Virus record (IMG/VR): IMGVR_UViG_3300042691_015253
Coordinates: 1-35,003 of that record
Strand: one strand, 5' to 3'
Length of the DNA: 35,003 nucleotides
From: a virus
This document shows, piece by piece, positions 1 to 32,960 of the stretch. A model generated the notes under the pieces. The model was not told where the DNA came from. It did no database searches and saw only the letters and a program-made list of their open reading frames with translations. Numbering within the stretch: position 1 is the stretch's first letter; each line of letters opens with the position of its first letter. Position numbers and translations under genes: made by a program.

Positions 1-187
1 CAGGGTTGTACGTGCGGGCAGCCCGGCACATAGCCAGGTACCCCTCCCCCTCCAGGTCCGGGATGAGCGCGCTTCGCTGCCAAGCCGGCCGGCTCTGGAC
101 GAAGTAGTGGGCCGCCGTCGCGACCAGATCGTAGTACTCAGTGACGAGCTGCTGTTGCCGCTTGGAGAGCTTGGATTGCCTGCTCAT
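1..187 (-). CDS. RNA polymerase sigma-70 region 2-like protein, partial (3' end outside window)
   Basis: From ATG at 187 the frame stays open to the edge, giving 62 codons of an incomplete gene. After a basic start (MSRQSKLSKRQQQ) comes a helix with LVTEYYDLVATAAHYFV, then a DLEGEGYLAMCRAARTYNP segment. This matches the pattern of sigma-70 region 2, in which a helix binding the RNA polymerase clamp is followed by D-L-x-Q-E-G-x-x-A-L-x-x-A-x-x-x-Y-D-P. A phage sigma factor would direct host RNA polymerase to phage promoters, often late ones. It overlaps the preceding gene by 50 nt and has only a weak ribosome binding site. Only region 2 is visible, so regions 3/4 are untested. The family call is a motif judgement. 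Confidence 0.6.
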   Translation of the reverse strand, partial: MSRQSKLSKRQQQLVTEYYDLVATAAHYFVQSRPAWQRSALIPDLEGEGYLAMCRAARTYNP

Positions 188-338
188 GGTGGTCCAGTCT
201 GGCCTGAGTCTTGCTAACAAACTCAGGCATGCCCTCCATGGCGTGCGCGATGAGCGCCACCTTGGCGTGGATCGACATGGCCCAGGGCACCACGGCGATC
301 AGGACTGTCAATGCGATCAACATCTCGTCAGCACTCAT
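138..338 (-). CDS. Small membrane-anchored coiled-coil protein (holin/XhlA-like candidate)
   Basis: 66 residues from ATG at 338, chosen because GGAGG lies about 9 nt upstream; in-frame GTG and TTG codons further up lack this. Residues about 6-24 (LIALTVLIAVVPWAMSI) form one hydrophobic helix. The rest is a charged, heptad-like helix rich in A, Q and H (QARLDHHEQAIQALQAA). One membrane helix plus a coiled coil in a small phage protein near lysis genes resembles XhlA-type haemolysin/holin accessory proteins, although those usually place the coiled coil first. Its stop lies inside the sigma-like gene. The function is inferred from topology and position only. Confidence 0.6.
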   Translation of the reverse strand: MSADEMLIALTVLIAVVPWAMSIHAKVALIAHAMEGMPEFVSKTQARLDHHEQAIQALQAATAARH

Positions 339-504
339 CCTCAACACCCTCCGCTATCATCTCCAGCATCCCTCCGGCCGCCTCGTCAGGCAGCTTCCCC
401 TTCCGCGTGTCTGACATGATCCTGCGGACCGCGTCCGGCCACTCCTCCGGAGGAAACTGGTAGACCCACGCTTCCTCCAGGCCAAACGCGATCAGCCTAA
501 TCAC
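328..504 (-). CDS. Small hypothetical protein
   Basis: 58 residues if translation starts at the GTG overlapping the upstream stop (GTGA at 504). GTG at 519, just after a GGATGG, is an alternative start adding five residues. The protein is mixed helical with an aromatic/acidic middle (EEAWVYQFPPEEWPDAV) and an acidic C-terminus (EGVEDEC). No family is recognised. It overlaps the downstream coiled-coil gene by 11 nt, so it belongs to the same translationally coupled run. The N-terminal residues are uncertain. Confidence 0.5.
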   Translation of the reverse strand: MIRLIAFGLEEAWVYQFPPEEWPDAVRRIMSDTRKGKLPDEAAGGMLEMIAEGVEDEC

Positions 505-734
505 CGTTTTGGCGGACACTTTCCATCCGGGCAATCGTCCGCGACCCTCTCTGTGCATGGGCAGTTCGTCCAGTTCTGGTTGTCCCCGGTCCTCACCTTT
601 CCAGTGCCCTTGCAGAGACTGCAGTTCTTCAGCGGCGGCTTGGGGGCGGGCTTGGCTTCTTCCATCTGCGCGACGATGGCGGCCTGGACGGCGACGAGCG
701 CCACGTAATCCGGCGTGTAGTCATCGATGAACAT
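501..734 (-). CDS. Small zinc-ribbon protein (DnaJ-like CxxCxGxG motif)
   Basis: 77 residues. ATG overlaps the protease stop as TGATG. The N-terminal half is helical and hydrophobic/acidic, followed by a proline/lysine linker. Then comes CSLCKGTGKV and, about a dozen residues later, CPC, with more cysteines at the end. CxxCxGTG is typical of DnaJ-type zinc-binding repeats and many small phage zinc ribbons, so a bound zinc ion and a nucleic-acid or protein contact are likely. It sits downstream of the papain-like protease. No specific function can be assigned. Confidence 0.6.
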   Translation of the reverse strand: MFIDDYTPDYVALVAVQAAIVAQMEEAKPAPKPPLKNCSLCKGTGKVRTGDNQNWTNCPCTERVADDCPDGKCPPKR

Positions 735-1684
735 CAGATCCTCCCTATGGTGCCTAGGTCCGGGAGCCCCTGCGGTGGATAGCCCTGAACGTCTGAATAC
801 GCCCAGGCATCCTCCGACTCAATGCACGTGGCGTACCCGGCATCGTCTGTGACGATCATGCCCGGCACCTGAGGCGGGTAGTCTGCCGGCCAGTTGGGGA
901 CGGGCGTGTTCCACGCCGCCCAGCTATTGGCTATGAACCAGACGCGGAAAGGCCAGAAGGTATGCGTGTCGTCATACCCTACCGTGGCCATGTCATGCGC
1001 CCACCCCGGCGAAGAGCGAGGGTGGATGTTCTTACTCCCCGGCTTGCTGCTCCACGCAGCCATCTGCCCGGAGTGGATGCCGTACCCGTTGTACAGGGCG
1101 TCCATCGCATCATCCAGGCTCTTGACGAGAGCGATGGTGCCAACCTTGTTCCTGTTGCACAGCGACTGGACGTCCGGCGGAACACCGCCGTTTCGGCCCC
1201 AACGGGTTCCGATCTGCCCGTCATACTTCGTCAGGTCAACCACGCCAGGGAAGTTGTCCCGTGGCATGAACCCAACGTCACGCTCAAACCTGCTGGCCCT
1301 CGCTGGGCTCATGCCCTCGCCGCCGTGACCGCGGGCACCGTACGTGGGCTCCGTTGCGGTCCGCTTGAACCAGGAGAACGGGGCGCCGTGTACCAAAAGT
1401 GATACAGCCCGCGTGCAGTCCCTGGCGTTCCGGCTACCGTGGGACACACAGTCTCCAACAGTTTGCCTTTCGGTAAAGGCAGTTGGGTCCAGCTTGAGGA
1501 CATAGCCCCACAGCATGGCCCGCTTGCCTTTGCCTGAGTTGGTGGTGGAGAAATACCGGACCGGATTGGTGGCAAGGAAGTCATCCTTGTCCTTCATCGA
1601 CGGGAGGTATCCCGCAAACCCGCCTGCTTCGTACGCCCTTACCAGTTCGGCAGAGCTGTTGAACAGGTCCTCATCTTGCGGCAT
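734..1684 (-). CDS. Papain-like cysteine peptidase (C1-type fold)
   Basis: 316 residues from ATG at 1684. GGAGGAGG lies about 9 nt upstream; an in-frame TTG at 1693 is too close to that site. The papain-type catalytic set appears in order: RQTVGDCVSHG with Gln about 74 and Cys about 79, GWAHDMATVGYDD with His about 230, and IANSWAAWN with Asn about 253, matching papain's Q...C, H and N-S-W. There is no signal peptide and no propeptide typical of secreted papains. The gene lies between a two-helix membrane protein and small proteins, in the same run as a subtilase. A role in lysis, wall degradation or virion protein processing is inferred. The family is fairly secure; the role is not. Confidence 0.75.
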   Translation of the reverse strand: MPQDEDLFNSSAELVRAYEAGGFAGYLPSMKDKDDFLATNPVRYFSTTNSGKGKRAMLWGYVLKLDPTAFTERQTVGDCVSHGSRNARDCTRAVSLLVHGAPFSWFKRTATEPTYGARGHGGEGMSPARASRFERDVGFMPRDNFPGVVDLTKYDGQIGTRWGRNGGVPPDVQSLCNRNKVGTIALVKSLDDAMDALYNGYGIHSGQMAAWSSKPGSKNIHPRSSPGWAHDMATVGYDDTHTFWPFRVWFIANSWAAWNTPVPNWPADYPPQVPGMIVTDDAGYATCIESEDAWAYSDVQGYPPQGLPDLGTIGRI

Positions 1685-2177
1685 CTGCGGCAACCTCCTC
1701 CAGTGCCCTGACCAGGGCGGCCCGCTTGTCAGCCGTCAGCGCCACATCGTCCTTGCCAATCGCCTTGACCAGGACGTCTTCGATGGCCACATCCAGGCCG
1801 GCGTACTTGCCCGGCAGATCGGTTCCCTTGAACGCCAGGTCCAGTGCGTTGGCGTTCGTCGTCCGGAACTTCCCCACGGTGGTGATGATGCTGTCGTCCC
1901 GCTTGACCACATCCGCAAGCGACGCGTAGTACGCGCGGACGCGAGCCTTGTCCTGTTTGCTCGCTGACTTAAGCACAGCGGTCACCTTGCTCTGCTCCAC
2001 CACCGGCACGTTGACCGAGGCGGTGGGGATAAACGCCGCCAGCAGCAGGCCCACGGCGACCACGCCGAGCAGGTTCTTGCCGATGGCGGCGGGAGTCATC
2101 TTGCTGATCAATGGCCAGGCATACACCAGGGCCACACATGCGGAAACGATCACGGCTGCTACTTGGTAGGGGGTCAT
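1671..2177 (-). CDS. Two-helix membrane protein with soluble helical domain
   Basis: 168 residues. ATG overlaps the subtilase stop (ATGA). Two hydrophobic segments at about 5-23 (VAAVIVSACVALVYAW) and 35-52 (NLLGVVAVGLLLAAFIP) form a hairpin. A roughly 115-residue charged, mainly helical domain follows, ending in ALVRALEEVAADAAR. A small inner-membrane protein between two peptidase genes suggests a holin, anchor or spanin-like role. There is no lipobox or other diagnostic motif, so the holin idea rests on topology and context. It overlaps the papain-like gene by 14 nt. Confidence 0.6.
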   Translation of the reverse strand: MTPYQVAAVIVSACVALVYAWPLISKMTPAAIGKNLLGVVAVGLLLAAFIPTASVNVPVVEQSKVTAVLKSASKQDKARVRAYYASLADVVKRDDSIITTVGKFRTTNANALDLAFKGTDLPGKYAGLDVAIEDVLVKAIGKDDVALTADKRAALVRALEEVAADAAR

Positions 2178-3058
2178 ACGATTGCCTTGTTTGAATGCTC
2201 CAGTGCGGTGGACGGATTGATCAGCCCCCAGCCATACAGGTGGTCATGGCCGGGATCCCCAGCATCGACGCTGGTGTTCTTGATGACGGCACGTGCCTTG
2301 CCGGACCGCGGCGGCGGCATCTGCGGGACCGCGAGGGCCAGGACGCCGGCAACAAACGGCGCCGCCATGCTTGTGCCAGAGAGAGTGGCGTACCCACCAC
2401 CGAGCCAGCAGGATGTGATCTCTTCCCCGGGGGCAGCGACGTCGATCTCGCGGCCACGGCAGGAGAACTCGCACACCGCCCCGTCTCGGCTGACGGCACC
2501 GACGGCTATCGTCTCTTCGTACGCTGCCGGGTATGACACCATCCCGCCGTCATTGCCGGCGGCGCAGACCATGATCATCCCAGCCTCATGGGCAGCACGC
2601 ACGGCATCCGTCATGTCGGAGGTGCGGACAGGAGCCCCAAGGCTCATCACGCAGATGTCGCACTTGGCCTCCACGGCGAAGAGGACTGCTCTGGCGACAG
2701 ACTCCAGCGACCCGGCGCCGTTGTTGTTCAGCACCTTGCAGCTGATGATCTCGGCCTGCGGGGCGACCCCTGTCATGGGCCCGCGGGCAGCGATGATTCC
2801 AGCCACGTGGGTCCCGTGGCCGTTGGTGTCCGACGCCGAGCAGTCCTTCGTAAAGTTGCGATGATCCTTGACAACGCCCGCCAGGGCTGGGTGGGTGTCG
2901 TCCACCCCGGTATCTAGCACGGCCACCCGCACGCCGGCCCCCTGGTGACGACTCCAGAGGGCCGGCAGACCGTACGCGGAAATGGACCAGTCAAGGCCTG
3001 AGGAGGGCAAGGCCTTTGCGACTGCTTCTACGCGGTACGGCGGCAGGTGAACAAGCAT
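2174..3058 (-). CDS. Subtilisin-like serine protease (S8 family)
   Basis: 294 residues from the ATG at 3058 (TGATG overlap); GTG at 3061 is also possible. The full S8 triad is present: Asp about 49 in AVLDTGVDDTHP, His about 81 in NGHGTHVAG, and Ser about 230 in LSGTSMAAPFVAG. The oxyanion Asn is about 169 in CAAGNDGG. The length fits one catalytic domain. There is no signal peptide and only a short N-terminal extension, so this resembles an intracellular subtilisin that would need a holin or lysis to reach the envelope. About seven cysteines are scattered through it. Neighbours are a hydrophobic protein upstream and a two-helix membrane protein downstream. Possible roles are host lysis, capsid/tail processing or host protein attack. 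Confidence 0.93.
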   Translation of the reverse strand: MLVHLPPYRVEAVAKALPSSGLDWSISAYGLPALWSRHQGAGVRVAVLDTGVDDTHPALAGVVKDHRNFTKDCSASDTNGHGTHVAGIIAARGPMTGVAPQAEIISCKVLNNNGAGSLESVARAVLFAVEAKCDICVMSLGAPVRTSDMTDAVRAAHEAGMIMVCAAGNDGGMVSYPAAYEETIAVGAVSRDGAVCEFSCRGREIDVAAPGEEITSCWLGGGYATLSGTSMAAPFVAGVLALAVPQMPPPRSGKARAVIKNTSVDAGDPGHDHLYGWGLINPSTALEHSNKAIV

Positions 3059-3378
3059 CACTCATCCCTGGACACAAGGACACGGATGAGTGATGTGACA
3101 ATCGGAGCCACCACGTTCAGGAGGATCGGCAAGGCGATCCCCAGGCTCTGGATCTTGGCCAGGTCTTCCTGAGCCTCCTCCTCCGTGATGGCCTGGGCTT
3201 GGGCCTGGAACAGCGGGAAGGTTTCGATGATCGGCAGCAGTGCCTTGGCTACCAGGTAGACGATCTCCAGCTTCTCGGCCAGGTTTGCCTCCGCCCACTT
3301 GGCGACGATGGCACTGACCTCCCGCAGGACGCTCACGTTCTGCAGCAACCAGCGGACGACAACGAACTTATCGACCAT
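3058..3378 (-). CDS. Small hydrophobic/amphipathic protein (possible holin-like)
   Basis: 106 residues starting MVDKF at 3378, preceded by an excellent GAGGAGG site 4-5 nt upstream. Mostly helical: KLEIVYLVAKALLPIIETF is a moderately hydrophobic helix, then an acidic/Gln-rich stretch (QAITEEEAQEDLAKI), then LGIALPILLNVVAPIVTSL near the C-terminus, which could span a membrane. It overlaps the MazG-like gene by 11 nt and is coupled to the subtilase. No family is recognised. A membrane role beside a leaderless protease is plausible but unproven. Confidence 0.6.
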   Translation of the reverse strand: MVDKFVVVRWLLQNVSVLREVSAIVAKWAEANLAEKLEIVYLVAKALLPIIETFPLFQAQAQAITEEEAQEDLAKIQSLGIALPILLNVVAPIVTSLIRVLVSRDE

Positions 3379-3742
3379 GCTTCCTCCTCTCGCAGGCAAT
3401 GGCCACAATGGCGTGGCCGGCAATGTCCATCAGGGTCTTCTGCCTAGTAATTGTCTCCAAAGGCCCCCTGAGCCGACGGGATTTCTCTCCGATCCGGGCC
3501 GCCTGGTACCGCCAGGCTTCGATGCCGTCCTGCTCCACGCCCAGGGCGTTCTCCAGGGGGTCCTCGCCGCACCCGTAGTAGTCCCGCTTCCTGGTCAGCA
3601 GGAGGTACAGCTCGTCACACAGGTCCCGGTAGGGGTCACCAGTGGACGTCTCGGCTGGCGCTGACGATCCGGCCGTACTCGGCCCAGAAACTAGCGGTAT
3701 GCGGGTCTTCGTCGTCGGTGCAAAGGTACGCAGTTCTGGCAT
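3368..3742 (-). CDS. MazG/DUF1599-like helical protein, start uncertain
   Basis: The C-terminal 90 residues look like a MazG-type or DUF1599 phage protein: CDELYLLLTRKRDYYG, then DPLENALGV, RIGEKSRRL and TLMDIAGHAIVAI. That is the helical layout K..DYG, I..K..RL, D...Y/H of these families, which include nucleotide pyrophosphohydrolases. Clear coding begins near 3640, where this frame has no start codon. The nearest is ATG at 3742, 7 nt after GGAG, which adds a Pro/Thr-rich 35-residue head and overlaps the upstream gene by 107 nt. Either the overlap is real or an indel has altered the start region. Catalytic activity is not shown. Confidence 0.6.
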   Translation of the reverse strand: MPELRTFAPTTKTRIPLVSGPSTAGSSAPAETSTGDPYRDLCDELYLLLTRKRDYYGCGEDPLENALGVEQDGIEAWRYQAARIGEKSRRLRGPLETITRQKTLMDIAGHAIVAIACERRKHGR

Positions 3743-3974
3743 GGGCCCACTCCTCACAACAGGTGTCGATGAAACTGTCAGCTCCGCACGTATTGGCAAT
3801 GCAGATGACGCCACGGTTTTCCTCCTCGTCAAACGAAAAGTACCCCAGCATGTCAGGCATGCTTCGCGGGTTCCTCAGGTAGCACCTCAGTGGGAACGGC
3901 ACCGGAAACTTCCGCTGCGCCCACCTCCGAAACCGCCTGAGCAGCAGCCTCCTCCAGTCGCTGGATAAACTCAT
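3636..3974 (-). CDS. Conserved phage protein with EEWAH motif (SprT-like peptidase candidate)
   Basis: 112 residues from ATG at 3974, with GGAG 7 nt upstream. A basic N-terminal helix (WRRLLLRRFRRWAQR) and PVPFPLRCYL lead to LGYFSFDEEENRGVICIA, then DTCCEEWAHARTAYL and SFWAEYGRI near the end. I recall an environmental-phage family with this E-E-W-x-H plus F-W-A-x-Y-G layout. The EEWAH resembles a variant of the HExxH zinc-peptidase helix, so an SprT-like fold is suspected. The first 122 nt overlap the resolvase gene in another frame, and third-position GC favours this frame there. Activity is unproven. Confidence 0.62.
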   Translation of the reverse strand: MSLSSDWRRLLLRRFRRWAQRKFPVPFPLRCYLRNPRSMPDMLGYFSFDEEENRGVICIANTCGADSFIDTCCEEWAHARTAYLCTDDEDPHTASFWAEYGRIVSASRDVHW

Positions 3975-23431: not shown

Positions 23432-24385
23432 CTAGCAATACACCACAGGTACTGCTTGGGTGACCGTTTCTTTTGGCTTGATCTCGCAGTTTTCGTCCAG
23501 ATAAAACTCTGGGATTTCGGCGTATCCGTTCTCACCGTCGTTCCCCGGCGGCCCCGGCGGCCCGGGGCGACCAGGCAGCGTCAGGATGGTGGTCACTCCG
23601 TCCTTCCCGTTTCGGCCATCCCTTCCGTTGCGGCCGTCTCGGCCCCAAACGCCGTCGAACCCGTCTCGCCCATCGATGCCATTCCATCCGTTGATGCCGG
23701 CATCTCCAGGAGCGCCAGCTGGCCCAGCGGCTCCGTCGAATCCGCTGGTCCCGTTGAGGCCAGGGATTCCAGCGGCGCCGGGGCTTCCGGCAGGTCCCGC
23801 TGGACCGGCGAAACCAGGCGTTCCCGGGGCCGGGTAGTTGTTGATTGTGGTGGTGTTGACGTTATTTGTGGTGAACGAGTTGCTGTAGGCGTTGTTAAAT
23901 ACCGTATCGCCAGCCACGTTAAACGTGGGCCCACCATAGGTTGGGTAGGTATTGAACGCCTGCGAGAGCGGGAAGTTAAATGTGTCGCCGCCGTAGTTGT
24001 AAACACTCGTTGTGCTGCCTGGCTGGCCAGGGATCTCAATGATTCCTGTCAGGCCGTTCTGCCCGTCAAAGCCATCAAAGCCATTGAGCCCATCCCGCCC
24101 GTCCTGGCCAGGAAACAACGGCCCCAGGGGGATCGGATCCCACGGAGGATCGCCGCCGCCGCCAGGCCCGTACCCGCCAGGCAGGTAACCACCACCAGGG
24201 CCTGCTCCGTATACGCCATTGCGTTGAAATGGCGAAAGGCTGGGCTGGATGCTGACGTTGCCGCGGTGCGTGATTGGCTGCGCGCAGTTGCCGAACACCT
24301 GCATCAGCGATTGCGCCATCTGCGGCGTCAGCTGAGTGCCGGCCAGACGGGCCAGCGCCGGCATGTTCTGGGTGTCAAACGCCAT
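23432..24385 (-). CDS. Collagen-like virion protein
   Basis: 317 residues; ATG overlaps the upstream stop (TGATG). An N-terminal helical head (1-45) and a Gly/Pro linker lead to two Gly-X-Y tracts, about 93-126 (GQDGRDGLNGFDGFDGQNG) and 188-287 (GTPGFAGPAGPAGSPGAAG, GRDGRNGRDGRNGKDG, GRPGPPGPPGNDGENG). They are separated by an Asn/Thr/Tyr beta-like block (FTTNNVNTTTINNY). The second tract is followed by a short Cys-containing tip (CEIKPKETVTQAVPVVYC). Such triple helices form trimeric tail-fibre shafts or collars. A distinct trimerisation tip is not recognised. Confidence 0.85.
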   Translation of the reverse strand: MAFDTQNMPALARLAGTQLTPQMAQSLMQVFGNCAQPITHRGNVSIQPSLSPFQRNGVYGAGPGGGYLPGGYGPGGGGDPPWDPIPLGPLFPGQDGRDGLNGFDGFDGQNGLTGIIEIPGQPGSTTSVYNYGGDTFNFPLSQAFNTYPTYGGPTFNVAGDTVFNNAYSNSFTTNNVNTTTINNYPAPGTPGFAGPAGPAGSPGAAGIPGLNGTSGFDGAAGPAGAPGDAGINGWNGIDGRDGFDGVWGRDGRNGRDGRNGKDGVTTILTLPGRPGPPGPPGNDGENGYAEIPEFYLDENCEIKPKETVTQAVPVVYC

Positions 24386-28822: not shown

Positions 28823-29133
28823 TACGCGGACTCCTGCGGCAGCATGCCAACCGCCCACTCCAGCGGCACAACCTCCACCTGCGCCATCAGCTCAGGGGTG
28901 ATATGCGAAAACGCCCCAACCAGCAGGCCGTCGTCGCCTACCTCGCTGAGAACATCCCCGCACAGCATCCACGTGCCATCGGTAAGCTGCCGGCCGACTG
29001 GCACATGCCGTGGGTCGCCAAAGGATTCCTGAATGCCGTAGAGCGTCACGGCGATTTCGTAACTGTAGACCAGCGCCAGCTGCCGCGAGTCTTCGTATGT
29101 CATCGGAAGCGTTAGATCAGCGAGCGTGGTCAT
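28822..29133 (-). CDS. Small hypothetical protein between adhesin and adaptor
   Basis: 103 residues from ATG at 29133 (ATGA). TYEDSRQLALVYSYEIAVTL, GDPRHVPVGRQLTDG, TWMLCGDVLSEVGDDG and LLVGAFSHITPELMAQ. Mixed alpha/beta and acidic, with no recognised motif. Position suggests a tail or connector accessory protein, or a chaperone for the adhesin. Confidence 0.55.
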   Translation of the reverse strand: MTTLADLTLPMTYEDSRQLALVYSYEIAVTLYGIQESFGDPRHVPVGRQLTDGTWMLCGDVLSEVGDDGLLVGAFSHITPELMAQVEVVPLEWAVGMLPQESA

Positions 29134-32100
29134 ACGGCCCTCCCCAGTGCGCGCTGGAAGTCCTGCATCGCGGTGTTAAACGCCGCCGCCTCCGCGTCCG
29201 TCAAGCCGGAGCCGATGCTGTATCCGCGAAGACGCTCTGCGGTGAACCCTTGCGCGTAGTCACTTCCGCCGGAGGTGGCACCGTCATTGAACGCAAACAC
29301 AAACACAGGCAGATTCAGAAGGGTTGACGAGGTTGCTGCGGCGGTTGCCTTCTGCGCACCGTTTTCGTAGATGGCCTGCGTGGAAGATACGCGCGACCCA
29401 AGCACAAATCCGCCAGATGCTGTGGGGCTGTAAGACGCTGGCGAGTCCACACCTCCGCCACCGAAGGCGTAATACGCACCGCCGTAAAACTGGTGAGACG
29501 AAGACACCCTGGTCAGATAAAACCTGTCCGCGGGATCGCCGGAGACAACATCAGCGCTGGTCATGCCGATGCGCGCGCGACTGCCTGAATATGCCGCGAC
29601 ATACGCGGATAGGTGCCTGTCAGTTGCCGACAGCACGTTGCCGGCAAGGCCGGTGTTTAGGTACTTGCTAGTTCCGTTGCCAAGAAGACCGCCGCTCGCC
29701 CCCGTTTCTGCGTAGTCTCCGCTGACGAATGGGCCGTTGTTGGTGTCCAGCGCATTGCCATACTGTGTTCCGCCAAGCGAAGGCCCCCTGTACAGAGGGA
29801 CAAGGCAACTGTTCAGGCCCGCAGCCGAGCCGTTGGAGCCGCCGCAGAAAAGGTTGAGCCTGTAAAACTTTGAGCGGAGGCCCGCGGCGTCGATTGCATT
29901 GCAAAAGCGGTTCACTGCTTCGGCAGTGCTGGCGCTTACGAACCCGCCGTTGTCATACACCCGGTCCACCCAACCGGCGGCATCGGCGTTGGACGCGCTT
30001 GGCGCAGTCGTTGGGAACGGCGCTGCTGGCGGAGTGAAGCCTGCGACATATCTCGCCACGCCGCGAGTAACGCGCACCTCGTCATAGTGATGGCCGGGGT
30101 TGTCAGGCCGGATGCGATAAGTGAGGTCTTTAGGCAGATTGGCCGTCGAAGTGCCGCTTCCCACCTGCACGCCGTCGCGGAATATGCGGAACGTGGAGCC
30201 TCCAGACCTTGTGATGGCGATGTGATACCACTGATTCAAGTTCCATGTCAGGGCCGCCGAAGCGGCGAACTCAAGCCCGTACCTTGCCGCGACGATTCTG
30301 TTGTCGCTCTGGACATAAGCGATCAAGTACTGCGAACCAACGCCATGATTTACTGGCGACCAAAATGTCACGCCGCCAGCGCTAACAGGGAAGCTGTTGG
30401 TCGTCCTCATGTACCAGAGTTCGATGGTGAAGTCGCCTGTTGAAAAACCAAACGGGAACCCAGCGAACGACAAGAAGTCGCTTGTGGAGGCTGCTCCGTT
30501 GAGCGCCTGACCAAACTTCCCTACAGACGATGTGACTGCCGCAGCCCCGTTCGCTGTGACTGTGCGTGCGTGCCGCGAAGTATCCGGAAACGAGGTGCTG
30601 CCGTTGGCGCCGTCCATCGACAACAACAGCGCCGTGCTAGCGAAGAACGGATCGGACGAGCCGGCGTCTTGGAACGGGGCAGTCAGCGCCGTGAACGTCG
30701 CCGTGTAGCGGGCGATGCCGCGAGTCACGCGGAACTCGTCTATGTTCCCTGTGAAATAGCCTTCGCTGCCTGCGTATGCCATGGCGCCCACGCGCACAAC
30801 GGCTGTGGAGTTCTGTATGGTGGCAACCGCAGATCCACTGCCCAGCAGAACCCCATCAACAAAATGCAGCACTGTAGTGCCGACGCGGGTGACGGCGAGG
30901 TGATACCAAGTGTTCAGCGACGGCGTCCACGCAGAGGTGGCCGTTGCAAACACTGAATCGCTGGAGAACGTAATAAGCTGCAGGCCGGTTCCAGCGCTGT
31001 ACCGCCACTGGAAGCCGCGGCCGGCTGTGCCGTTGAAGTCCTTGCCACACAACTGGATGATCCCGGTTGCATCAGAGAACCGGAACCAGCCCTCAAGGGT
31101 GAAGTCGCCGGCGCCAAACTCAAAGACTTCATTGTCGGCCACTTCTAGATAGTCGCCGTTGCCGTCAAGCAACAGGCTGGCCCCACCAAATCGACTGTGC
31201 GCAGTGCTGATCTGTGAGTTGCCGGCAGCGCTGACAGGGAGCGCGAGCGGCGACGAGTCGGTGAATGTGGTGCTGCCGTTGAGGCCGTTCATGTGCAACA
31301 GCAGCGAGACGCTGGTCAGGTACGGGTCGTCTACCGCAGAAGGCTCAACTGGCGTTACTGCCGCCGAAGCCGACGAGTAGTCGCCCTGCCCAGCCGCGCT
31401 TACCGCCGCCACGCGAAACACATACGCAGTGCCGTTGGTTAAGCCAGTAACGGTTGCGGTCGTCGCCGTCGATGTGCCGTCGCTGAAGGTCGTCCAAGTG
31501 GACCCGGAGTCGTTGCTGTACTGGATCACATAGTCGGTGATGCTATTGCCGTTGTTCGCCTGCGGCGTCCATGACAGGGAAACAGACAGGTTGCCGGCCA
31601 CGCCAGATACGCCAGTGGGAGCAGACGGCGGAAGCGACGGCGTGATCGAAGCTGAATCGGTGGAGTAGGCACCAATACCGGAAACGCCAACCGCCGCCAC
31701 CCGGAAGATATGTGCGGTTCCGTTCGTCAGCCCGGTGATGGTGGCGGATGTGGAGGTGGATACGCCGTCATAAACCACAGCCCAGCTCGCACCTCCGGTG
31801 GTGCTGGCCTGCACAACGTAGTCGGTGATCGTCGCACCGTTGCTGGCCGGCGCGGACCAAGACAGAGAAACCTGCGAGTCGCTTGGCGTACCCGTCAGGC
31901 CGGTGGGGGCGTTTGGGACGGGCTGCGGAGTGACAGACGCCGACGAGTCCGAGTACGGACCTGTGCCGCCCGCATTGGTCGCCGCCACCTGCAGCACATA
32001 TGCAGTGCCGTTGACCAATCCTGGAACGATTGCAAACGTCGATACGCGGCTGTCAGGGAACCTAGTCGCACGCGGGGCGAACGACGACGAATACCTCGCC

Positions 32101-32960
32101 ACGCCAGAGGTGATCCTTACCTCGTCTATGTTTCCCGCGAATGGGTACACCTGCGTTGACACCGCCCCGGCGCCGATCCGCAGCGGAGCGGTGGAGTTAG
32201 CAAGCGTCCCCATGGTCGAATGCGTCGATTCGCCAATAAGAACGCCGTCAACAAACGACGAGAAGGTGGTGCCAACGCGGCAGAGCGCGATGTGATACCA
32301 AGTGTTGATCTCTGGCGTCCAACGGTCGGCCTTGGTGGAAAAGCCGCCGACGGAGTTGAACATCAGGAAGTCAAGGCGAGGCGACGTTGTGCCTGCGTAT
32401 CGCAACGCCCACCCGCGTGAGCCTGTCGAATCCTTGCTGATTATGTTCTGAGGCGATGTCCCCAGCGACGAGAACCGCACCCACGCCTCAAGCGTGAAGT
32501 CGGAAGTGCCGAAGTCGAAGAGCGCGTTGTCGGCAAGCTCCAGATATGAGGTGCTGCCGTCCAGGTACAGGCTGGATCCGCCAAACTTGCTCTGCGAAGA
32601 ACTGGAAGCAGCCGCACCGGCAGCAGTGGCAGTGAGCCCATTCGCAGACGAGTCTGTAAGCGCACCGTCGAAGTGCATGAGCAGCGAGACGTTTGAGAAG
32701 TACGGGTCCGTCTCTTGGGCGCCAGCCAGCGTTGTCCAAGCCCCGCCGGCGCTTGGGCGGTACTGCACCGAATACCCGGTGATCGGAGAGCCATTGTCCG
32801 CGGGGGCAGCCCACTCAGCGATGACTTGCGAGTCACGGGCGTAAACATCTGGCCCAAAAGGGGGCGGCGCTTGCGTGCCAGACGGCGCATCCGGAAGTGG
32901 GATGAACGTCGCGGAGGACGTCTCCGGTATAGGGCGCAGCAGGCGAGGGGAGAGCGGCAT
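29130..32960 (-). CDS. Large adhesin / tail fibre with FnIII and LamG-like domains
   Basis: 1276 residues from ATG at 32960, 1 nt after the previous stop. Layout: FnIII-1 split at 26-83 and 306-345; LamG-1 at 84-305 inside it; FnIII-2 at 348-441; FnIII-3 at 446-537; LamG-2 at 544-766; LamG-3 at 768-983; C-terminal domain about 990-1276. FnIII marks are SDSQVSLSWSAPASNG and GLTNGTAYVFRVAAV. LamG marks are FTLEAWVRF, NTWYHIALCRVGTT, FVDGV and DEVRITSGVARY. The tip has YRLNLFCGG, CLVPLYRGPS and FQRALGRAV, a domain I recall from environmental phage proteins. It probably binds host surface glycans. It precedes the adaptor and nozzle rather than following the tail genes. Confidence 0.85.
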   Translation of the reverse strand: MPLSPRLLRPIPETSSATFIPLPDAPSGTQAPPPFGPDVYARDSQVIAEWAAPADNGSPITGYSVQYRPSAGGAWTTLAGAQETDPYFSNVSLLMHFDGALTDSSANGLTATAAGAAASSSSQSKFGGSSLYLDGSTSYLELADNALFDFGTSDFTLEAWVRFSSLGTSPQNIISKDSTGSRGWALRYAGTTSPRLDFLMFNSVGGFSTKADRWTPEINTWYHIALCRVGTTFSSFVDGVLIGESTHSTMGTLANSTAPLRIGAGAVSTQVYPFAGNIDEVRITSGVARYSSSFAPRATRFPDSRVSTFAIVPGLVNGTAYVLQVAATNAGGTGPYSDSSASVTPQPVPNAPTGLTGTPSDSQVSLSWSAPASNGATITDYVVQASTTGGASWAVVYDGVSTSTSATITGLTNGTAHIFRVAAVGVSGIGAYSTDSASITPSLPPSAPTGVSGVAGNLSVSLSWTPQANNGNSITDYVIQYSNDSGSTWTTFSDGTSTATTATVTGLTNGTAYVFRVAAVSAAGQGDYSSASAAVTPVEPSAVDDPYLTSVSLLLHMNGLNGSTTFTDSSPLALPVSAAGNSQISTAHSRFGGASLLLDGNGDYLEVADNEVFEFGAGDFTLEGWFRFSDATGIIQLCGKDFNGTAGRGFQWRYSAGTGLQLITFSSDSVFATATSAWTPSLNTWYHLAVTRVGTTVLHFVDGVLLGSGSAVATIQNSTAVVRVGAMAYAGSEGYFTGNIDEFRVTRGIARYTATFTALTAPFQDAGSSDPFFASTALLLSMDGANGSTSFPDTSRHARTVTANGAAAVTSSVGKFGQALNGAASTSDFLSFAGFPFGFSTGDFTIELWYMRTTNSFPVSAGGVTFWSPVNHGVGSQYLIAYVQSDNRIVAARYGLEFAASAALTWNLNQWYHIAITRSGGSTFRIFRDGVQVGSGTSTANLPKDLTYRIRPDNPGHHYDEVRVTRGVARYVAGFTPPAAPFPTTAPSASNADAAGWVDRVYDNGGFVSASTAEAVNRFCNAIDAAGLRSKFYRLNLFCGGSNGSAAGLNSCLVPLYRGPSLGGTQYGNALDTNNGPFVSGDYAETGASGGLLGNGTSKYLNTGLAGNVLSATDRHLSAYVAAYSGSRARIGMTSADVVSGDPADRFYLTRVSSSHQFYGGAYYAFGGGGVDSPASYSPTASGGFVLGSRVSSTQAIYENGAQKATAAATSSTLLNLPVFVFAFNDGATSGGSDYAQGFTAERLRGYSIGSGLTDAEAAAFNTAMQDFQRALGRAV

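Follow-up and report, generated by a model that had tools for sequence, protein, structure and literature searches.

The closest described counterparts of the locus studied here are the holin-endolysin-spanin cassettes of phages and, for single proteins, the C1A peptidases, the intracellular serine proteases (ISPs) of Bacillus and the surface-layer-associated protease Cwp84. Endolysins are either cytosolic or tethered to the membrane, as in signal-anchor-release endolysins, and both forms are likewise seen in the papain-like protease module described below. Our search of the open-licence literature turned up no article about planctomycete phages, and an overview of papain-like proteinases names phage CHAP lysins, the word stem "planctomycet" being absent from the available portion of its text (PMC10318531). 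For the planctomycetes themselves, a proteinaceous wall resistant to sodium dodecyl sulfate has long been proposed (PMC3422733, available portion). Here, we analysed 35,003 nucleotides of viral DNA, a linear fragment that constitutes the entire IMG/VR record IMGVR_UViG_3300042691_015253 (hereafter, the window), in which a coupled gene run encodes an S8 subtilase, a predicted papain-like protease and several small membrane proteins. In our reading, to which we assign a probability of about one half, this cassette is the window-lineage version of a widespread late envelope-attack protease module of Planctomycetota phages, most likely serving lysis.

Results

Papain-like protease and anchored partner

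The core of the module is a papain-like protease with an anchored partner protein (TM-b) encoded directly upstream of it; the S8 subtilase does not belong to the module in its widespread form. At E 0.1, the papain-like protein of the window matched neither a Pfam nor a PHROG family; its best match among PDB sequences was a dihydrofolate reductase (E 0.69). For structure prediction with AlphaFold, an alignment of six sequences gave a poor model, with a predicted local distance difference test (pLDDT) score of 32, and a model from 20 sequences was used instead (pLDDT 75; predicted template modelling score, pTM, 0.82). The top Foldseek match to this model was xylellain (3ois; E 3.6e-7), aligned by VIA-align over 226 residues with Z 18.1 and a root-mean-square deviation of 2.9; further VIA-align matches were pro-Der p 1 (Z 17.5), procathepsins (Z near 16-17) and Cwp84 (4ci7; Z 16.0). 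All 50 structural matches listed were C1-type proteases, with no NlpC/P60 or CHAP match in that list, which by itself is no argument against either family, and identity to C1A structures was 10-16% among the matches listed. The best viral structural matches included C1-type proteins and two entries named "Peptidoglycan binding-like" and "N acetylmuramidase (Fragment)".

The predicted catalytic residues of the window protein are Q74, C79, H230 and N253. Both Q74 and C79 are conserved in 118/118 sequences and H230 in 117/117 aligned ones, while the position of N253 holds Asn in 112/117 and Gln in 5/117. The N-terminus is propeptide-like. A hydrophobicity scan of the window protein found its N-terminus free of hydrophobic segments; such a segment is carried by 56/75 IMG/VR relatives and by 7/11 homologues from planctomycete genomes (loci L120-L130). 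On the predicted model, the papain-like protein is a member of the C1A fold and very probably an active protease. As far as family profiles go, the candidate identity of an NlpC/P60 or CHAP endolysin was rejected, there being no Pfam match of any kind at E 0.1.

With a model built iteratively on the same loci as those counted, a TM-b homologue was located immediately upstream of papain in 108/117 loci, comprising 20/20 of the window lineage, 6/6 on contigs of metagenome-assembled genomes (MAGs), 5/11 among L120-L130 and 77/80 from IMG/VR. In control proteomes, this model matched only partner genes beside papain. A lipobox-like motif is present on TM-b of L126 and L130, and no spanin family matched TM-b.

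Twenty IMG/VR records hold relatives of the papain-like protein, and at least 584 papain-family stretches were confirmed in IMG/VR out of 600 candidates. In a phage collection of 50,697 records there were 0 matches to the papain-like protein, and the portal gave one weak match, to a Microcystis phage. The module was found in phages whose backbones are unrelated, and also in chromosomal prophages, in several of which it lies beside terminase- or portal-like genes. Two planctomycete MAG contigs (M023 and M024) carry an anchored protein pair followed by papain and a CxxC protein, without S8; in M025 the papain gene stands behind a longer TM-b-like protein with no adjoining CxxC protein, and M026 is a 4.4-kb fragment holding the anchored pair and the first part of papain. 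Neighbouring genes on the MAG contigs belong to other phage backbones (lambda-type portal, terminase).

Gene run in the window

The genes of the run, and the gene that bounds the module, are as follows:

3058..3378, minus strand: TM106, a small protein whose C-terminal part has hydrophobic stretches and which resembles holins in shape only
2174..3061, minus strand: S8 subtilase of the intracellular-serine-protease type, 295 aa (PF00082 profile, PDB matches)
1671..2177, minus strand: TM168, two N-terminal hydrophobic helices and a soluble domain (hydrophobicity prediction)
734..1684, minus strand: predicted C1A papain-like protease, 316 aa from the ATG at 1684, the open reading frame (ORF) being open to a TTG at 1693 (predicted fold, catalytic residues)
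501..734, minus strand: 77-aa protein with a CxxCxGxG-type motif (ORF translation)
328..558, minus strand: 76-aa protein inside the module, present in part of the lineage (ORF call, comparison of relatives)
138..347, minus strand: TM69, one hydrophobic helix and then a polar tail, holin-like by shape only
2..220, minus strand: beginning of a sigma-factor-like gene, truncated where the contig ends, the module boundary (PHROG 351, Sigma70_r2)

Overlaps of 4, 4 and 14 bases join the four core genes, and the gene after them overlaps by 1 base, so that the run is considered coupled; the last two genes overlap by 58 and 20 bases with the starts as chosen. A preliminary description of this DNA had reported an S8 triad protein, a two-helix membrane protein, a papain-like protein and small hydrophobic proteins in one coupled run, with which the overlaps, the PF00082 match and the predicted C1A fold agree. 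The bounds that it gave, 734-3378, take in the core genes and leave out the last genes of the module, down to about 138. Papain, TM168 and S8 were present together in 16/16 phage records compared, the window included, as well as in M022 (a 55-kb contig of a Pirellulaceae MAG) and M021 (3.6 kb, Synechococcaceae MAG). Since all three occur in all 16 records, and the Gln, Cys and His residues are conserved across 118 sequences, their grouping is above chance. The sigma-like gene matched PHROG 351 at E 0.0024 and Sigma70_r2 at E 0.045, the latter under its cut-off.

The window genes lie mostly on the minus strand and run from portal and tail genes through recombination genes (ERF, SSB, helicase, exonuclease) to the protease run. 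Larger relatives measure 56-61 kb. Where compared, their gene order is circularly permuted with respect to the window, and five of them have repeats of 69 to 127 bases at their ends; the window thus represents about 35 of about 60 kb.

S8 subtilase

By its sequence, the S8 protein is certainly an S8 subtilase, matching PF00082 at E 1.7e-58 (198.7 bits against a cut-off of 21.8) and PHROG 3677 "protease" at E 3.5e-76, with Asp50, His82, Ser231 and Asn170 invariant in 6/6 sequences. Its best PDB matches were ISPs, aligned from residue 3-7 on, and its N-terminal HLPPYRV aligns with RLIPYEV/RLIPFKI at the N-terminus of solved ISPs. The LIPY-like motif is one that we take to be inhibitory in ISPs, with HLPPYRV presumably as its counterpart. 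No signal peptide was seen.

S8 was found only in the window lineage, and it was rejected as part of the module core, given that contigs M023-M026 carry the papain family without it (tblastn, E 1e-3). The preliminary description had built its lysis-like cassette from both proteases and membrane proteins; the papain-like enzyme, with its anchored partner, stays at the core of the widespread module, and S8 drops out of it. It is probably an accessory of the window lineage, acting as a second envelope protease or as a late cytosolic one. As a separate observation, an in-frame intein with LAGLIDADG-like segments splits S8 inside the catalytic GHGTH motif in one relative (G012, locus L073, at about 14.9-17.1 kb) and is absent from the other S8 sequences examined.

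Membrane and small proteins

TM168 corresponds to TM-a plus TM-b, encoded separately by a pair of overlapping genes in a number of relatives (e.g., G004, G007, G013 and G019), and its Pfam matches were weak and below the cut-offs (DUF998, E 0.0021; Anthrone_oxy, E 0.0069). Homologues of TM106 were found by phmmer in 14/15 related genomes scanned and by tblastn in the fifteenth (G004); a proposed homology between TM106 and a 123-aa protein of IMG/VR relatives found no support (hhalign probability 0.1). In many other loci a counterpart of the CxxCxGxG-type protein is encoded after papain, and the module neighbourhood of L123 includes a small holin-shaped protein. None of the several small hydrophobic proteins matched a known holin family in Pfam or PHROG. 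Proteins with hydrophobic segments, scored on a simple scale that picks out certain soluble proteins, S8 among them, as well, made up 58/188 within 2.6 kb of the papain gene against 57/1153 elsewhere (odds ratio 8.6; Fisher p 4e-23, a value that is too small because the genomes are related).

Beside the module, L120 (8714-9274), L121 (10660-11184) and L122 (10654-11181) encode a secreted thioredoxin-like protein; all three loci lie in genomes without over-cut-off MurG, MraY and transpeptidase, and the prophage Pfam set holds three thioredoxin-like members.

Search for muralytic enzymes

None of 41 window proteins matched a muralytic Pfam family, 10 of them scanned at E 0.1 and 31 at E 0.005, with the best 25 of 26 families listed for the 31-protein scan and a few small or doubtful ORFs outside it. 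This is in line with the preliminary description, which had seen no usual lysin family in the 35 kb. The PHROG listing for window genes, comprising 25 of 57 families, excludes nothing.

The main alternative named there, a lysin beyond the window, found no support: no muralytic family was recognised in the 25 kb missing from the window, as read in its closest relative G001 (22 + 25 proteins; Pfam, PHROGs), or in the proteins scanned from 15 further related genomes. For the latter (14 other viral relatives and M022), clusters non-homologous to G001 or the window numbered 397, with 307 representatives of at least 75 aa; the 140 longest were scanned, and the full list of 15 Pfam families contained none that is muralytic. 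Amidase_2 was present in 0/20 related records, and ten selected M025 proteins showed no muralytic family. In 11 prophage-bearing planctomycete genomes, matches to Amidase_2 and CHAP are distant from the modules or sit on different contigs.

Hosts

Among genome matches to the papain homologue, 5/6 belong to Planctomycetota. At least 11/392 Planctomycetota genomes carry a homologue (10 besides G022, from a scored subset of the candidates), and in the phylum of G021, a cyanobacterial MAG, the count is 1/292, namely G021 itself on a 3.6-kb contig. In 6/15 carrier genomes (G022, G024, G365, G147, G359 and G403) MurG is missing or scores no more than 32 bits, MraY reaches at most 81 bits, below its cut-off, and the transpeptidase is absent. 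G365 is essentially one 6.43-Mb contig, and genome incompleteness is thus an unlikely cause of the missing genes there. The absence of synthesis genes suggests a wall without peptidoglycan in these six carriers.

Other features of the window

Between tail genes, a collagen-like repeat protein is encoded at positions 23432-24385, with PF01391 in the window Pfam set, and positions 29130-32960 encode a variable fibre-like protein of 1276 aa, which is probably the source of the fn3, lectin-like and F5/8 type C families in the same set. At 3636-3974, a small conserved protein, also present in relatives, has a CCEEWAHAR motif that recalls the metal-binding HExxH minus its first His.

Discussion

For the module we computed folds, catalytic residues, gene pairing and host phylum, and recognised no muralytic domains in the scanned proteins of the lineage; timing, membrane breach, substrates and lysis are what we infer from these. 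An envelope-attack role is favoured by the near-constant pairing of protease and partner, the several small membrane proteins, the terminase, portal and capsid neighbourhoods in relatives, the existence of tethered and untethered enzyme forms, and the lack, in the lineage, of any muralytic enzyme that the scans recognised. The proteases of the window lineage, where no export signal was seen, would collect in the cytosol late in infection, and in many relatives the N-terminal hydrophobic segment would tether the protease to the membrane. Breach or depolarisation of the inner membrane would be the task of the membrane proteins; the papain-like enzyme, tied to a membrane- or lipid-anchored TM-b, would digest envelope proteins until the cell bursts. 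A stronger version of this proposal, in our view tentative and open to considerable doubt, is that proteolysis takes over lysis altogether: the C1A protease and its anchored partner, here with the subtilase, would replace the endolysin, dissolve a protein-based envelope and suffice in hosts without peptidoglycan synthesis, and the thioredoxin-like proteins of L120-L122 would reduce envelope disulphides.

Several observations weigh against an envelope-attack role. In HK97-like relatives, the module lies between portal-like and capsid-like genes, the usual site of a head protease; among 80 loci, clusters named by eye as portal-like and capsid-like were found at 23 (median -3.5 kb) and 21 (median +1.7 kb), respectively. 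A search for a separate prohead protease in the HK97-like loci gave no motif match and 2 seed hits, which tells for neither reading. Phage proteases often mature heads, and by this account the papain-like protease (and S8) would process virion or capsid proteins, the adjoining membrane proteins being unrelated small genes. As a general explanation this appears unlikely, since the module of the window lineage is remote from the head genes and adjoins HNH, nuclease and sigma-like genes, the hydrophobic N-terminal segment of so many papain relatives would be odd for a head protease, and Clp/S49 protease families (2 members) are present in the set around the planctomycete-genome loci. A capsid-processing role may nonetheless apply in those relatives where portal and capsid genes flank the module. 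Moreover, the more distant relatives G778:C100 and G024:C50, from the same host family and with portals 31-34% identical, are without papain, TM-b and S8.

Further contrary points concern the wall and the hydrolase. Cultured planctomycetes have lysozyme-sensitive peptidoglycan, as stated in the available portion of PMC4432640, so that a protease alone may not suffice, and MurG, MraY over its cut-off and the transpeptidase all occur in the same 9/15 carrier genomes (MurG over its cut-off in seven, and at 236 and 156 bits in two). TM168 weakly matches the "endolysin" family PHROG 14614 (E 0.09, 14 bits), and an unrecognised muralytic enzyme could hide among proteins without Pfam match or outside the scans, such as the 167 short cluster representatives and the stretch of the sigma-like gene past the edge of the window. 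In addition, the result on muralytic families covers the window lineage and not the planctomycete prophages, for which 25 of 61 and 25 of 86 Pfam families were listed. The peptidoglycan of planctomycetes and the nine carriers with synthesis genes would fit lysis by a peptidoglycan-cleaving enzyme of an unrecognised family, with the papain module as a spanin-like or surface-layer (S-layer)-removing accessory, as would the many proteins of these phages that match nothing in Pfam and the appearance of Cwp84, an S-layer-associated protease, among the fold matches. We judge this, too, to be improbable, in view of the lack of a recognised muralytic candidate in the scanned lineage proteins and of the six carriers without synthesis markers. 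The same evidence divides over the protein-envelope host suggested in the preliminary description: Planctomycetota hosts and the six carriers lend it support, and cultured planctomycetes with peptidoglycan and the 9/15 carriers speak the other way. As regards the host, the planctomycete link of the module is firm and that of the window lineage weaker, given that the latter depends on how MAG contigs were binned (M022 and another contig in G022, a Pirellulaceae MAG with two lineage portals) and that the lineage contig M021 was binned with a cyanobacterium.

Finally, the module is found inside large chromosomal contigs, 8/11 of the loci L120-L130 lying within contigs of 0.88 to 7.3 Mb, and S8, without a visible signal, resembles cytosolic intracellular serine proteases and has gene counterparts in large Bacillus phages. 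Both features would suit a module for lysogenic conversion, superinfection exclusion or host takeover, with envelope or cytosolic proteolysis unlinked to lysis; this is very unlikely in our opinion, considering the terminase-, portal- and capsid-like genes near the module in many relatives and a core pair that stays nearly constant across unrelated backbones. We therefore retain the envelope-attack module as our preferred reading, in conditional terms, given the peptidoglycan genes of nine carriers, the peptidoglycan of cultured planctomycetes and the many relatives whose module stands among head genes.

If true, this reading would add a phage lysis route that lacks a peptidoglycan hydrolase, and the phylum is one in which the wall has been under dispute for decades. 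Were proteolysis to take the place of muralysis, the module would come close to a new kind of lysis system. The module is common and may mark Planctomycetota phages in metagenomes. Furthermore, it supplies proteases and membrane proteins for trials on planctomycete envelopes, and what holds planctomycete cells together becomes testable from the phage side.

Comparison with known systems

With holin-endolysin-spanin cassettes, the locus shares a compact run in which small membrane proteins stand beside one soluble or membrane-tethered hydrolase. It differs in that this hydrolase is a predicted C1A protease (with S8 in the window lineage) and that no muralytic family was found in the scanned lineage proteins.

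Like the C1A peptidases xylellain, pro-Der p 1 and the procathepsins, the phage protein combines the predicted fold with a propeptide-like N-terminus and a Gln/Cys/His/Asn active site, whereas its low identity to the matches listed, the lack of any Pfam match and the replacement of Asn by Gln in a few sequences set it apart. The spacing from Gln to Cys is 5 in the phage protein, compared with what we take to be 6 in papain. The Bacillus ISPs (S8A) are the closest solved sequences to the phage S8, which also resembles them in the lack of a visible signal peptide and in the alignment of HLPPYRV with the ISP propeptide; in contrast, the phage S8 sits in a run of membrane proteins, and in one relative an intein divides its catalytic His motif. 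Cwp84, in turn, has the C1A fold in common with the papain-like model and is surface-layer-associated according to its entry title, but it is a bacterial enzyme with a lectin-like domain and not a phage gene.

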